A stretch of DNA of 58,879 nt, from assembly GCA_029238175.1 (NCBI GenBank), contig JAQWGO010000112.1, positions 1 through 58,879 on the forward strand, in the 5' to 3' direction. Position 1 is the first letter of the stretch, and each line of letters starts with the position of its first letter. The translations under genes were made by a program, and so were the position numbers. The stretch is from Henriciella sp. (lineage in GTDB: Bacteria > Pseudomonadota > Alphaproteobacteria > Caulobacterales > Hyphomonadaceae). The notes under the pieces are model-generated. The model saw only the letters and a list, made by a program, of their open reading frames with translations. It did not search any database and was not told the origin of the DNA. Positions 2,840 to 9,111 of this stretch are shown here, piece after piece.

Positions 2840-5158
2840 TTGTCACTAAGAAAACTAGCTGTATCAACGGCATCACTTGCTGTTGCCCTATCAGTGCTGC
2901 CTGCATTTGCTCAAGATGTAGAAGACCAAAACGCGATTGATCGCGTGCTTGGCAAAGTCACTGTCACCGCAACAAAGAAAACAGACGTCGAAGACGTTCA
3001 GGCCGTACCGGCTTCCGTAACCGCTTTTAACGCGGCTAAGATCGACGCCCTTAAAGTGCGTGATCTACAAAGCCTGTCATTCACAACACCAAACGTTACG
3101 CTGGATGACATTGGAACTTCACGCGGTACCGCCAACTTCCAAATTCGCGGCTTAGGCGTGAACTCATCAATTCCTTCGATTGATCCAACTGTCGGCGTCT
3201 TCATTGACGGCGTATATCTGGGTGTGAACAACGGCGTCGTCTTCGACATGTTTGACCTTGATAGTGTCGAAGTTCTTCGCGGCCCACAGGGTTTGCTTTT
3301 CGGTCGCAATACGACCGGCGGCGCAATTGTCGTCAATACTGGCAATCCAACGGACGAATTCCGTTACAAGTTACGTGCAGCCGTTGAAGGCCCTGTCGAT
3401 GATGGTCGCGGCGGCGTGAACAGTTATCTGCAAGGCGTCGTGTCTGGCCCAATTGTTGAGGGCAAGCTGAACGGTAAGATCGGTGCGTATTTCAACAATG
3501 ACGAAGGTTACTTCAAGAACCTCGCCAATGGAAACAATCACGGCGAAGCTGAAACCACGATCATTCGCGGTGCTTTGGAATGGTTCGCCAATGACGACCT
3601 TACATTCCTTGCAAAGCTAGAGCGCGGCGAAACGGACGCTGACGGCCCAACGGCTCAAAACCGTGGCATCTATGATCGTAACAGCTTTGATTTCGCGATC
3701 GACAATGAAGGCTTCATTGAGAACGAAGTGCTGCTCGGCTCGCTACGTACTGATTATGACGTAGACTTCGGCAATGGTACAATCACCAACATCTTTGGCT
3801 ATCGTTCTTACGAAGCCACGACAGACGGTGATATTGATGCAACGCCACTCTTCCTGTTCCACTCAGCAACTGAGTTTGATCAGGAACAAATCTCTAACGA
3901 GTTGCGTTATAACGGGCAGTTCGGCGATGCGAATGTGACAACTGGGATCTACTATTTCCAGCAAGACATCCTCTATACCGAGAACCGTTCTATTCCCTCT
4001 GATCCACGCGGCCTTTACTATGGCGGCGGCGACCAAGAGCATACGGTCTTCGGCCTGTTCGGACAGGTTGATTATGATGTCACCGACAAGCTAACGCTGA
4101 CGGCTGGCCTGCGCTATTCAGAAGAAGAAAAAGACGTCGCAATCACCTATGTTCAGCCGCGCGCTGAATGTTCGGTACTTGATGGCAACTGTCCTACGAC
4201 TGGAACCAACCCGATCACTGGCGACAATAACGGCTTCACGGACAGCGATGACTGGTCAAACTGGACACCAAAAGTTGGCTTCCAGTATTTCGCCGCTGAT
4301 GCGACGCAAGTCTACGGTAACTATACAAAGGGCTTCCGCTCAGGTGGTTACAACTTCCGTATCACCGCACCTGGTGCATTTGAGGCGATTTTCCCGGCCG
4401 GGGATAGCCGCGCCTTTGACGAGGAAGAAGTCGATAGTTTCGAAATCGGCATCAAGCATGAAACTGACGATGGACGCGGCCAAATCAACGCTGCCGTGTT
4501 CTTCACAGATATTCAGAACATGCAGCGCGAAGTTAATGCCTCAAGCGCAACCTCCGGCGTCGTTCAAACCATTCTGAACACAGCCGATGCAGAGATTACG
4601 GGCTTGGAGATTGAGGGCCGTTACGCCGTAACTGATAACTTCTTGATCACCGCAAATATCGGCTTGATCGATGCTGAATATCAGTCTGTCCTGTTCGATA
4701 TCTCCGGTGACGGTGTAATCGACGGCACGGACCTGTCATTGGCGCTACCACGGGTGCCAGAGACAACGTTCGGCATTGGCGCTCTCTATGACGCAGATAT
4801 TGGTAAGTACGGTAGCCTTGTTACCCGTGTGAACTATGCCAACCGCGATGAAGTTGCTTACACAGACAGCAACTTTGGTTGGATCAACGAAGCTGAAATG
4901 ATTGATGCTGACTTGACCTGGAACACGCCATATGAAGGCCTCTCCGTGTCACTTTATGGCCGGAACCTGCTTGATGAAGTTCAAGCTGGCGGCGACACGC
5001 AGTTGCCATTCGGCGGTAATGTCGCGGCGCTCGCTCCAGAAGGTGAAAACCGCGCAAACGGTGTGAATGCACCATTTGATTCAAACCCAGCAGCCGGAAC
5101 CTTCTCCCCATTAAAAAAAGGCCGTCTTGTAGGCTTGGAACTAACGCTGTCTTACTAA
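2840..5158 (+). CDS. TonB-dependent receptor (772 aa)
   Basis: This is a complete outer-membrane TonB-dependent transporter. It starts at TTG (2840), supported by GGGAG seven bases upstream and by the signal peptide that follows at once (MSLRKLAVSTASLAVALS, ending PAFAQ). The TonB-box-like segment is GKVTVTATKK. The plug domain shows FQIRGLGVNSSIPSIDPTVG, the DSVEVLRGPQGLLFGRNTTG signature and GGAIVVNTGNP. The barrel ends in LELTLSY, with the terminal aromatic residue needed for BAM recognition. This subfamily (plug with VFIDGVYLG) is widespread in Hyphomonadaceae and sphingomonads with varied, mostly unknown ligands. A strong terminator follows at 5182. The leftward receptor at 2401 may share its regulation. 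Confidence 0.92.
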   Translation: MSLRKLAVSTASLAVALSVLPAFAQDVEDQNAIDRVLGKVTVTATKKTDVEDVQAVPASVTAFNAAKIDALKVRDLQSLSFTTPNVTLDDIGTSRGTANFQIRGLGVNSSIPSIDPTVGVFIDGVYLGVNNGVVFDMFDLDSVEVLRGPQGLLFGRNTTGGAIVVNTGNPTDEFRYKLRAAVEGPVDDGRGGVNSYLQGVVSGPIVEGKLNGKIGAYFNNDEGYFKNLANGNNHGEAETTIIRGALEWFANDDLTFLAKLERGETDADGPTAQNRGIYDRNSFDFAIDNEGFIENEVLLGSLRTDYDVDFGNGTITNIFGYRSYEATTDGDIDATPLFLFHSATEFDQEQISNELRYNGQFGDANVTTGIYYFQQDILYTENRSIPSDPRGLYYGGGDQEHTVFGLFGQVDYDVTDKLTLTAGLRYSEEEKDVAITYVQPRAECSVLDGNCPTTGTNPITGDNNGFTDSDDWSNWTPKVGFQYFAADATQVYGNYTKGFRSGGYNFRITAPGAFEAIFPAGDSRAFDEEEVDSFEIGIKHETDDGRGQINAAVFFTDIQNMQREVNASSATSGVVQTILNTADAEITGLEIEGRYAVTDNFLITANIGLIDAEYQSVLFDISGDGVIDGTDLSLALPRVPETTFGIGALYDADIGKYGSLVTRVNYANRDEVAYTDSNFGWINEAEMIDADLTWNTPYEGLSVSLYGRNLLDEVQAGGDTQLPFGGNVAALAPEGENRANGVNAPFDSNPAAGTFSPLKKGRLVGLELTLSY

Positions 5159-5181
5159 GACGAGTTTGAATACGAATTGGG

Positions 5182-5211
5182 AAGGCGGCCTGAATGGGCC
5201 GCCTTTCTTTT
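5182..5211 (+). terminator. Rho-independent terminator after the TonB receptor
   Basis: A 9-bp perfect stem, AAGGCGGCC (5182-5190) with GGCCGCCTT (5197-5205), has a 6-base loop and is followed by TCTTTTT. It overlaps the in-frame upstream extension of the selO reading frame, which argues against selO starting at 5177. Confidence 0.9.
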
Positions 5212-5239
5212 TATGTCGATCAAAGCCATATGGTCGGGC

Positions 5240-6649
5240 ATGATCGAAACGCCTCCAATTACCGAAATCGCCGACCTGTTTTCAGATCCAGCTGAGCCCG
5301 CAGATTTCCCGGAAACGACCCTACGGTTTCGTAACCAACGCGCTGCCGAATCTGTCGGTCTAGGCAATCTTTCTGATCAAGCATGGATCGATCATTTTGC
5401 TAGGTTTGAACCGCTGCCGGGAAACATGCCTGGCCCGCGCGCAATGCGTTATCACGGCCACCAGTTTCACGTATACAACCCTGACCTTGGCGACGGGCGC
5501 GGATTTTTGTTTGCCCAAGTTCGCGATGACAAAAACCGCCTGCTCGATCTCGGTACAAAAGGCTCAGGGCAAACGCGCTGGTCGCGGCAGGGCGACGGCC
5601 GCCTAACGTTAAAAGGCGGCCTCCGCGAGGTTTTGGCGGCATCATATCTCGAGGCCATGGGTGCAAATACATCGAAGATTTTCAGCCTGGTTGAGACGGG
5701 TGAGGAGCTGCATCGCGGCGACGAGCCCTCACCAACGCGGTCCGCAGTGATGACCCGGCTAAACCATAGCCATATCCGCTTTGGTACGTTTCAGCGCGCC
5801 GCCTATCACGACGATACAGAAGGCATGGCCCTTCTGATCCGGCACATAATTAAGCACTATTATCCTGAGTGCGCTGACGAAGATCTTGGCGCAGCCACAA
5901 CGGCTTTGTTTGAACGGATGACAGAGGCTACAGCCAGAATGATCGGCCAGTGGATGGCGATTGGCTTCGTGCACGGCGTGATGAACACGGATAATTTCAA
6001 CATAACCGGTGAAGTGTTTGATTTCGGGCCTTGGCGCTTCCTTGCAAAGAGCGACCCAAATTTCACTGCCGCGTATTTCGACCAGCAAGGCCTCTACCGC
6101 TTCGGGCGACAGCCGACACAAGGTCTTTGGGCGCTGCAGCAACTCGGCGGCGCGATGAGCCTTGTTGCTGACACTGACGCCCTTTCAGAAGCCATGAAAG
6201 CCTATGAGCCAGCTTACCAGCAAAGCTTCGCGGGCCACACGCTGGCATTGCTTGGGCTGGAAAGCAGCGACACGCTTCGGGAAGACCTTCTATTCCTGCA
6301 AAACTTTTATGGCTGGATGACCGAGTCGCAGGCCAACTGGAGCCAGACTTTCTTTGACTGGTTCTGCGGCAAGGAAAGTGAAAAGCGCGCCGCGAATAGC
6401 CCGCAATCACATCTTTATTCAGAAGCGAGTTTCGAGCCCGTTCGCGCAATCCTGATGAGCAGAACGCCCCTACGCCCAGAGCGCTTGAAAGCGCCGTACT
6501 TCCAGCGCCTAACACCGGCGCATCTGGAAGTCGATTTGGTCGAAACATTATGGGCCCCGATCGCCGAGCAAGACGACTGGGGCCCATTCCAACAGCACCT
6601 TGACCTTATCGACCAAGCTCGGCTGGCTTATGACTGGAGCGGGCGATGA
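5240..6649 (+). CDS. selO: Protein adenylyltransferase SelO (YdiU/UPF0061)
   Basis: SelO is a pseudokinase-fold enzyme that transfers AMP from ATP to Ser/Thr/Tyr of target proteins and is linked to redox stress. Family motifs are clear: LDLGTKGSGQTRWSR (nucleotide-binding Lys), LTLKGGLREVLAA (conserved Glu), RSAVMTRLNHSHIRFGTFQ (paired Arg), HGVMNTDNFNI (metal-binding Asn) and FDFGPW (DFG-like Asp). The frame opens at 5177 inside a terminator, so I place the start at ATG 5240 (MIETPPITEIADLF); ATG 5213 is an alternative, and neither has a strong ribosome-binding site. The C terminus ends YDWSGR and lacks the Cys-x-x-Cys/Sec tail seen in many SelO proteins. The 3' end overlaps the oppositely oriented merC-like gene by 22 bases. 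Confidence 0.9.
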   Translation: MIETPPITEIADLFSDPAEPADFPETTLRFRNQRAAESVGLGNLSDQAWIDHFARFEPLPGNMPGPRAMRYHGHQFHVYNPDLGDGRGFLFAQVRDDKNRLLDLGTKGSGQTRWSRQGDGRLTLKGGLREVLAASYLEAMGANTSKIFSLVETGEELHRGDEPSPTRSAVMTRLNHSHIRFGTFQRAAYHDDTEGMALLIRHIIKHYYPECADEDLGAATTALFERMTEATARMIGQWMAIGFVHGVMNTDNFNITGEVFDFGPWRFLAKSDPNFTAAYFDQQGLYRFGRQPTQGLWALQQLGGAMSLVADTDALSEAMKAYEPAYQQSFAGHTLALLGLESSDTLREDLLFLQNFYGWMTESQANWSQTFFDWFCGKESEKRAANSPQSHLYSEASFEPVRAILMSRTPLRPERLKAPYFQRLTPAHLEVDLVETLWAPIAEQDDWGPFQQHLDLIDQARLAYDWSGR

Positions 6650-7011
6650 ATAGACCAGCGTAAGATGTGACCAACACTGAGGAAGAGAGCGCCGCTTACA
6701 GTCAATATCGTCTCGAAGTCATGGAGAGGCTCAACGAAGGCTCCCAATGTCAGGCCCAACACACCCAAACTTAACAGCGATATAATCATGCCCGCCTGCT
6801 TTTGTCGTCTGACAGCCCACGCCGCACTGACTGCCAACGGCGCAGCGAGTGCCACCAAAACCTGATGAATAATCTCAGACTGCAAACTATGCATTGTTGC
6901 AGGCAGAACAGATAAAACGAGCGGCAAAGCTAGGCAGTGGAGCATGCAGAGCCCCGACAGCGACACCGCAGAAATATCTACGGCGCCTTGCACTGAACGC
7001 GCTCGGCGCAT
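6628..7011 (-). CDS. MerC-domain inner-membrane protein
   Basis: A 127-residue protein with about four hydrophobic segments, matching MerC-domain proteins in size and in the first-helix motif SGLCMLHCLALPLVLS, whose Cys-x3-Cys pair can bind a soft metal ion. Its ATG (7009-7011) overlaps the TGA of the upstream receptor gene as TGATG, so translation is probably coupled. MerC was named for mercury uptake, but many chromosomal copies sit beside zinc-type TonB receptors and are thought to take part in zinc or other metal transport. There is no merA, merT, merP or merR here, so mercury resistance is unlikely. Metal specificity is inferred from context. Confidence 0.75.
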   Translation of the reverse strand: MRRARSVQGAVDISAVSLSGLCMLHCLALPLVLSVLPATMHSLQSEIIHQVLVALAAPLAVSAAWAVRRQKQAGMIISLLSLGVLGLTLGAFVEPLHDFETILTVSGALFLSVGHILRWSIHRPLQS

Positions 7012-9080
7012 CAGAATGCCACCCGCAAACCGACCCGGAAATTCTGTCCCGGCGCAGGGGCAACATCTTTCAGAACGGACGTTGCGTAACGCACCTCTTC
7101 GTCCGTAACGTTTCGGGCTTCGATGAAGGCTTCTGTACCATCAGCGCCGAAGCCGAAGTCTGAGAGATCAACCTCGCCGCGTAGATTCAAGACGGTATAG
7201 CCGTCGGTCGCAAACTAGCCGGCACCCGGATCATCTTGATCACCGGCAAACGTTACATCGCCGCCAATCTCCCAAGCGCCCCATTCTGCGCTTGCACCAG
7301 CATTCAATGTCACCGGGGGTATAAACGGCACATTCCCGCCGCCATCCAATTCCGCTTCAACAAAGTCGACGCTGGCATCAAAGGTCCATTCTGCACTCAG
7401 CGGTCCATCGATAACTGCCTCACCGTAGATTTCACCACCAATGAAAGAGGCGTCTTCTTGAGTTACAAGGAAGACAGGTAATTCGTCCAACTCGCGGCCA
7501 TCTGGCGCTAGGTAGATGAAGTCCGTGAACTCCGTCGCGAACAGGTTCGCGCCAACACTCAGAGTATCGTTGCTCCAGCGCGCGGTACCCTCAAGATCAA
7601 GGCCTTTTTCTTTATCTAGAAACCTGCTCCCGATCTCATACTGCTCTGTCGCAAGGTGAGGGCCATTCGCGAATAGTTCGCTCTCATTAGGCGCACGTTC
7701 GGAGTAAGAGGCCTGCGCCCCAAAGAACCACCCACCTTCAAAGTGACGGTGCGCGCCAAACGATCCGCTCACCAGATCGAACCCAGCTTCGCCATTCACC
7801 GTATTATCAAGCTCGACGCGCTCAAGACGTGATCCGAACTCAATACCAAATCCGTTATCCCATTCGCGCGTCTGATATAAAAACGCGGCAACGCTTTCAG
7901 TGGTTGTTGGCGTAATGAACGCTTCTTCACCGAACGCGATAAGCTCTTTATCCAATATCTGAAGACCGATCGCACCGTTCAACTCTCCAAACGCCGTGCC
8001 GGCTTCCAAGCGCGCCTCAAAACCATCTGTCTCATAGACAGTCCCAGCTTCGCCTGGAGCCTCGAACTCGGCATGCTCATAGTCAACGAAAACCAAAGAC
8101 CCGCGAACACTCGTTAGGCCTGCCTCACCCAGCTCAGTACCGCCCCGAATTTCGACGCGCGTTTGCTCAAGGTCGATGAACGGAGACTCTTCTTCCTCGT
8201 GATGCTCTTCCTCGTCGTGATCCTCGTCTTCATGCTCTTCATGGCCGTGACCCGGCAAACCATACTCAGATGTCTGCTGACGAACCGAAACGCCGAAGAA
8301 TGACGTGTCACCAACCCAGCTCAAACCTGCGCTGAATGTCTGTGTGTCTACAAAGGAATTTTCGAGTACGCCTTCGCCGCCCTCCTCTTCCTCATGCACT
8401 TCACCTTCAGCCTCTTCAGCCGCGATCAAGGCCGTAGATTCAGACCCGCCTGGAATTTCATAATCACCGAAATCGCGCTGCGATGCGCTGAGGCTGAACA
8501 CGAAAGGTCCATTTACGAACTGCGCTTTGCCCGCAAGCTCCGTACCTTCGTTCACACTATTGTAAGCCGAGAAAAGATCGGCGGAAAATGGCTCGGCTGG
8601 CAGCTCTTCAGCGATCAAACCGTCAATCACATTCACGACACCGCCAATGGCTTGCCCACCATAGGCGAGGGCTGCTGGACCGCGCAAAATTTCGATCTTC
8701 GTCGCATCAATTCCATCTGCACTAACCTGATGATCTGGCGAAGCTGCTGAGGCATCAATGACGCCTATGCCATTGGTCAGCACCTGAACACGCTCCGCCC
8801 CAAGCCCGCGCAAGACCGGACGGCTAGCACCCTGCCCGAAGAACGTGGTTGAAACACCAGGCTGGCGGTCAAGTGTGTTTCCAAGACTGGCTTCTAGGTT
8901 CTCAAGTAGCTCTTCACGATCAATCGACGTCGCATTGCCGATCAGCTCGTCTGCGCTGCGGTCAGAACCGGGGATTGTTACGAAAACTGTATCTGCAATC
9001 AGAGGTGCCTCAGCGTCTTGGGCATATGCGGACGCCGCACCGACTGTCAGGCAAAGGAGAGGGAGGAAACGAAGCTTCAT
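7011..9080 (-). pseudogene. ZnuD-like TonB receptor with an in-frame amber stop
   Basis: An outer-membrane receptor of the zinc/heme (ZnuD) type. The signal peptide is MKLRFLPLLCLTVGAASAYA; the plug has LGNTLDRQPGVSTTFFGQGA, RPVLRGLGAERVQVLTNGIG and KIEILRGPAALAYGG. Two loops are rich in His, Glu and Asp (around residues 225-240 and 275-300), typical of zinc-capturing receptors. The open frame 7215-9080 (621 aa) ends at TAG 7215-7217, yet the same frame continues for 67 more codons (from FATDGYTVLNLRGEVDL) to TGA at 7011-7013 and ends RVGLRVAF, an intact last barrel strand with terminal Phe. One substitution from GAG or CAG would explain it. Without readthrough the product lacks its last strands and should not fold. 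This is either a very recent pseudogene or a sequence error. Confidence 0.85.
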
Positions 9081-9096
9081 GACCGAATTCCATTAT

Positions 9097-9111
9097 TGTT
9101 ATGTTATCACT
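9097..9111 (-). promoter_or_regulatory. Candidate Zur operator upstream of the ZnuD-like gene
   Basis: On the plus strand the bases read TGTTATGTTATCACT, an imperfect dyad matching 12 of 15 positions of the Zur-type pattern TGTTATANTATAACA (pattern from memory). It begins 17 bases upstream of the receptor start codon, where a repressor would block transcription. A Zur site fits a zinc-uptake receptor plus MerC operon. No zur gene lies in the window. Confidence 0.45.

Follow-up and report, generated by a model that had tools for sequence, protein, structure and literature searches.

When a single in-frame stop codon breaks a bacterial gene that is otherwise intact, it may mark a recent loss of function, an error in the sequence or a stop that is in fact decoded, and the question raised by the locus described here is which of these applies to a gene for a ZnuD-like TonB-dependent receptor in Henriciella sp. 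The window, that is the whole stretch of 58,879 nucleotides that was analysed, is one complete contig (C155) of a draft genome of 181 contigs and 2.85 Mb that is 95% complete. A sequence-only reading of it had placed an amber codon 67 codons ahead of the natural end of the gene, and this is borne out: the frame runs through 621 sense codons, TAG at codon 622 and a further 67 sense codons ending in RVGLRVAF before the natural TGA, with no other in-frame stop in its 689 codons. The features concerned are the following.

9080-7011, minus strand: gene for the ZnuD-like TonB-dependent receptor, a frame of 689 codons plus stop, broken at codon 622
7217-7215, minus strand: in-frame amber codon TAG (codon 622), a sense codon in 29 of 29 aligned relatives
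7014-7214, minus strand: tail of 67 codons following the TAG, encoding, by prediction, the final three strands of the barrel with the C-terminal Phe (identity, pN/pS, fold model)
7013-7011, minus strand: natural stop TGA, whose final base also begins the merC ATG (TGATG)
6628-7011, minus strand: merC-family gene, 127 amino acids (Pfam PF03203, 77 bits)
9098-9110, minus strand: putative Zur-box-like element GTGA-N5-TAAC, one mismatch against the core GTTA-N5-TAAC, beginning 30 nt 5' of the start codon
8187-8249, minus strand: His/Glu/Asp-rich stretch, residues 278-298, which aligns with the region of the His-rich stretch in ZnuD

A second TonB-dependent receptor gene lies nearby on the plus strand (2840-5158), with a SelO-family gene downstream of it in the same orientation (5177-6649).

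The Pfam barrel match spans the TAG and reaches residue 639 (profile position 423 of 436), the NCBIfam ZnuD match continues past it to residue 689 (profile position 685 of 685), and all 67 codons of the tail can be aligned with the 29 relatives, at 57-90% identity. Because the profile matches cross the TAG and the tail aligns in this way, the open frame beyond the stop is not there by mere chance. In the search of family genomes the window receptor is the sole copy with an internal stop among the matches listed.

Identity and predicted structure of the receptor

Plug and beta-barrel domains are both present in the receptor (PF07715, 58 bits; PF00593, 83 bits), and the NCBIfam ZnuD profile NF038289 is the top scorer of 17 families, with a full-length match of 316 bits over residues 6-689. 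This score falls under the curated cut-off of 950, and for that reason the gene is named ZnuD-like here and is not filed as ZnuD. The best solved relative by sequence is ZnuD of Neisseria meningitidis (163 bits). The fold was modelled from the read-through protein together with five relatives, at moderate confidence (mean pLDDT 62), and with this model as query Foldseek placed ZnuD chains at ranks 1-4, the match to 4rdr having TM scores of 0.72/0.71. The proposal that this is a zinc-type receptor is upheld in so far as the gene is ZnuD-like and has a Zur-box-like element, and is weakened by its failure to reach the ZnuD cut-off; a zinc receptor is what we infer the gene to encode. No other clear ZnuD-like gene was found in the draft, and so no clear second receptor of this kind that could stand in for the first (against the ZnuD profile the runner-up scores 41 bits). 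A ZnuA-family protein was not found in the 95%-complete draft either, in a search that also gave none in a Caulobacter control, and zinc uptake across the inner membrane may depend on some other system.

From residue 165 onward 22 strands were counted by eye in the model, the four-residue pieces at 472-475 and 480-483 being left out, and the site of the stop, residue 622, falls between strands nineteen and twenty in a loop modelled with low confidence. A product of 621 residues would, on this model, lack strands twenty to twenty-two as well as the terminal Phe. Outer-membrane proteins are recognised by BAM through their last strand. Such last-strand recognition is described as current dogma in an excerpt of PMC10945584. 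Since the truncated receptor lacks its C-terminal strand according to the model, it should, in view of this biology, fail to assemble. The earlier suggestion that the TAG, if real, removes receptor function is thus expected from the predicted loss of three strands, the C-terminal one included.

Conservation on either side of the stop

The family search covered 105 genomes including the genome itself and gave a match at 1e-40 in 99 of them and none in six; the closest copy is 72% identical to the window receptor. The alignment set consists of copies from 29 of the 98 other matching genomes, namely those with loci retrieved. A search of genome contigs gave 10 loci, of which L039 and L040 repeat family-search records, judging from their equal coordinates, and stand outside the 29; L041, L042 and L044 entered the alignment behind the fold model and no other comparison. 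Codon 622 specifies Glu in 12 of the aligned relatives, Gln in 10, Ser in six and Leu in one, and judged from the alignment it is a variable site, yet one that is sense in every relative aligned.

The statement that the downstream part is undamaged was confirmed. Against the five copies L010, L011, L014, L018 and L021 the tail is 86.6-89.6% identical, as compared with 60-72% for the 242 residues that precede it, and against more distant copies the tail and the barrel are conserved about equally. In nine chosen comparisons, which represent eight distinct copies since L039 repeats L012, the tail has pN of 0.075-0.121 versus a near-saturated pS of 0.705-0.876. At the 19 tail positions that are invariant in the 29 relatives the window copy does not differ once; over residues 30-689 it differs at three of 201 otherwise invariant positions, and each of the 29 relatives differs at between none and seven. 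The 198 retained invariant codons contain 443 nonsynonymous sites, and with zero changes after the stop the neutral divergence since that event would be less than about 0.7% per site (95% bound), if the stop is real; were all three deviations taken as later than the stop, arithmetic gives a limit of about 1.7%. As the tail is conserved like functional sequence and deviations are few, the whole gene, tail included, was under constraint until very recently.

These figures bear on the view that the gene is an old pseudogene, or that it has undergone an adaptive truncation and the shortened receptor is in stable use. The gene can be lost, as the family genomes without a match indicate, but relative to the closest copies conservation of the tail is no lower than that of the preceding barrel and the frame has acquired no second stop, and a cut ahead of the last three strands would, according to the fold model, remove the C-terminal strand. 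Long-standing decay and adaptive truncation are both regarded as hardly credible. What speaks for a null allele of very recent origin is that the stop is absent from the relatives and that there is as yet no sign of relaxed constraint. An erroneous TAG, or one that ribosomes read through, would leave the tail just as conserved.

Readthrough and suppression

A suppressor tRNA or programmed readthrough that decodes the TAG would give full-length receptor at a reduced level, and purifying selection on the tail is in keeping with this, as are the argument, in excerpts of PMC7918605, that a bacterial gene with an in-frame stop is in many cases no pseudogene, and the suggestion made there that readthrough is frequent. 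Recoding of TAG throughout the genome is ruled out, as TAG terminates 122 of 350 sampled open reading frames (at least 100 codons each, in a sample of 387 kb). A second in-frame stop occurs within 10 codons downstream of TAG in 42 of 122 cases, of TAA in 49 of 153 and of TGA in 26 of 75, with no enrichment of back-up stops after TAG relative to the other two. None of the 28 tRNAs found in the draft has a CUA anticodon, and a relaxed threshold added one fragment of 15.7 bits only; the set is incomplete, tRNAs for Trp and Ile being missing from it as well, which leaves some room for a suppressor. Passages of PMC9481147 put the measured basal readthrough of UAG at 0.01% for Pseudomonas putida and at 1 in 20,000 for P. 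aeruginosa, in neither case above 0.01%, and imply a value of about 0.02% for E. coli. The stop is moreover found in none of the 29 aligned relatives and in no other match among those listed. Decoding of the TAG is on balance improbable. A particular form of it, in which the species keeps the amber codon as a low-level readthrough switch that throttles the receptor and, by way of the start codon overlap, MerC as well, and the suppressor tRNA is among those missing from the set, is very improbable. The initial reading had offered three options for the stop, and of these a very young mutation or an error agrees with the conserved tail and the undamaged remainder of the gene, while a suppressed stop, together with the suppressor tRNA that was to be looked for, is disfavoured.

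Sequence error and a survey for other internal stops

The main rival to a recent null allele is a base error or a mixture of strains in the draft, with the gene intact in the organism. This is a serious possibility, although a clearly less likely one. The assembly is a draft in many contigs, and the rest of the gene, the operator-like element and the overlap with merC are all intact. The same gene has frame changes in four other family genomes, and these may in part be sequence errors too. The four are L105 (G063), L106 (G051), L107 (G077) and L108 (G047); two of the changes sit in His/Glu-rich stretches, the one in L106 adjoining a directly repeated 13-mer, and slippage or assembly error is likely at the changes within such stretches. 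The counterargument, a weak one, is that nonsense errors seem infrequent, since 387,279 sampled bases yielded no further case in which an internal stop was shown to break a recognised family.

The sample comprised the window and 20 further stretches, or about 14% of the genome. A codon-based survey of it gave 63 raw candidates for internal stops, with weak discrimination; its automatic step recovers 5055 of 7000 planted stops (72%), measured on the same open reading frames as those behind the codon model. Thirty-six of the 63 candidates were looked at, one of which is the receptor TAG, eight being scanned with Pfam and 27 judged by eye from overlap of open reading frames. In none of the eight does the best family stretch shown cross the stop. 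Three have different families on either side, and so are neighbouring genes, and one has two TadE-family stretches that were read as two neighbouring genes. In three more just one side has a family, and the remaining candidate (L086:17874) is without any match, these four being less firmly settled. At L086:17874, on the minus strand, a TAG separates two segments in one frame, of 139 and 86 codons, whose codon usage is coding-like and which match no family.

The most likely reading

The locus is best read as carrying a very recent nonsense change that inactivates the receptor, and we consider this probable, if well short of certain. The change would be of very recent date and would have hit the sole clear ZnuD-like receptor gene of the draft. 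Translation would stop at codon 622, given ordinary termination at UAG, and the 621-residue product, without the C-terminal Phe strand that BAM recognises, would fail to assemble and be degraded, as the fold model and the biology of outer-membrane proteins lead one to expect. The strain would then be without this presumed route for zinc, and any translation of the overlapping merC that is coupled to that of the receptor may be lost. Pressure from phage or bacteriocins as the driver of the change is speculation, and a look at the literature for nonsense mutations in receptors that confer resistance to phage turned up nothing specific. The event is an ordinary nonsense change of the pseudogene type. 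Its value is for annotation: the gene should provisionally be entered as a ZnuD-like receptor with a probable null allele of very recent date, and should not be cited as a case of recoding. Beyond that it has little significance.

The Zur-box-like element and the overlap with merC

Of more use than the nonsense codon itself is a by-product of the comparison, the overlap between the receptor gene and merC. The natural stop had been said to overlap merC as TGATG, and this proved correct. The merC start lies about 200 nt beyond the TAG, the same one-base overlap being present in all 11 of the aligned relatives in which merC is directly downstream (L010-L019, L021). All 11 also have a Zur-like core upstream of the receptor gene. 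Across the 30 copies, with that of the window included, the 150 nt upstream contain GTTA-N5-TAAC, with no more than one mismatch, in 15 and lack it in the other 15; in 300 mononucleotide shuffles the core appeared in 1.3 copies on average and in five at most. An identical 13-mer is common to the window and nine of the 29 relatives. The arrangement suggests that receptor and merC may form one zinc-responsive, translationally coupled pair, and it hints, in these 11 relatives, at a role for the MerC-family protein in the handling of zinc. The term 'MerC family' was not found in the literature looked up. Apart from the window merC, the draft has no MerC match. No merC match lies within the 1.5 kb flanks in 18 of the 29 aligned relatives, and in the 16 other genomes of the genus with a MerC match it is beside the receptor in 10 and elsewhere in six, which speaks against a fixed tie between the two genes.

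Comparison with known systems

Bacterial genes with in-frame stops, as treated in excerpts of PMC7918605, resemble the window gene in having one such stop in a sequence otherwise under purifying selection, and differ from it in that the stops there occur in at least two species, whereas the window stop is seen in one genome. Parallels with ZnuK, ZnuL and ZnuM of Caulobacter crescentus concern regulation: passages of PMC4176598 describe these as Zur-repressed TonB-dependent receptors and report Zur boxes found with GTTA-N5-TAAC. The window receptor is likewise alphaproteobacterial and has its putative GTGA-N5-TAAC 30 nt ahead of the start; the likeness rests on this upstream motif, and control of the window gene by Zur is a prediction. 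In structure the closest comparison is with ZnuD of N. meningitidis (PDB 4rdr, 4rdt, 4rvw), which shares with the window receptor the plug, the barrel and a His-rich stretch in the same region, and from which the window receptor differs in being only 24% identical to it in the fold alignment and in carrying a TAG at codon 622.
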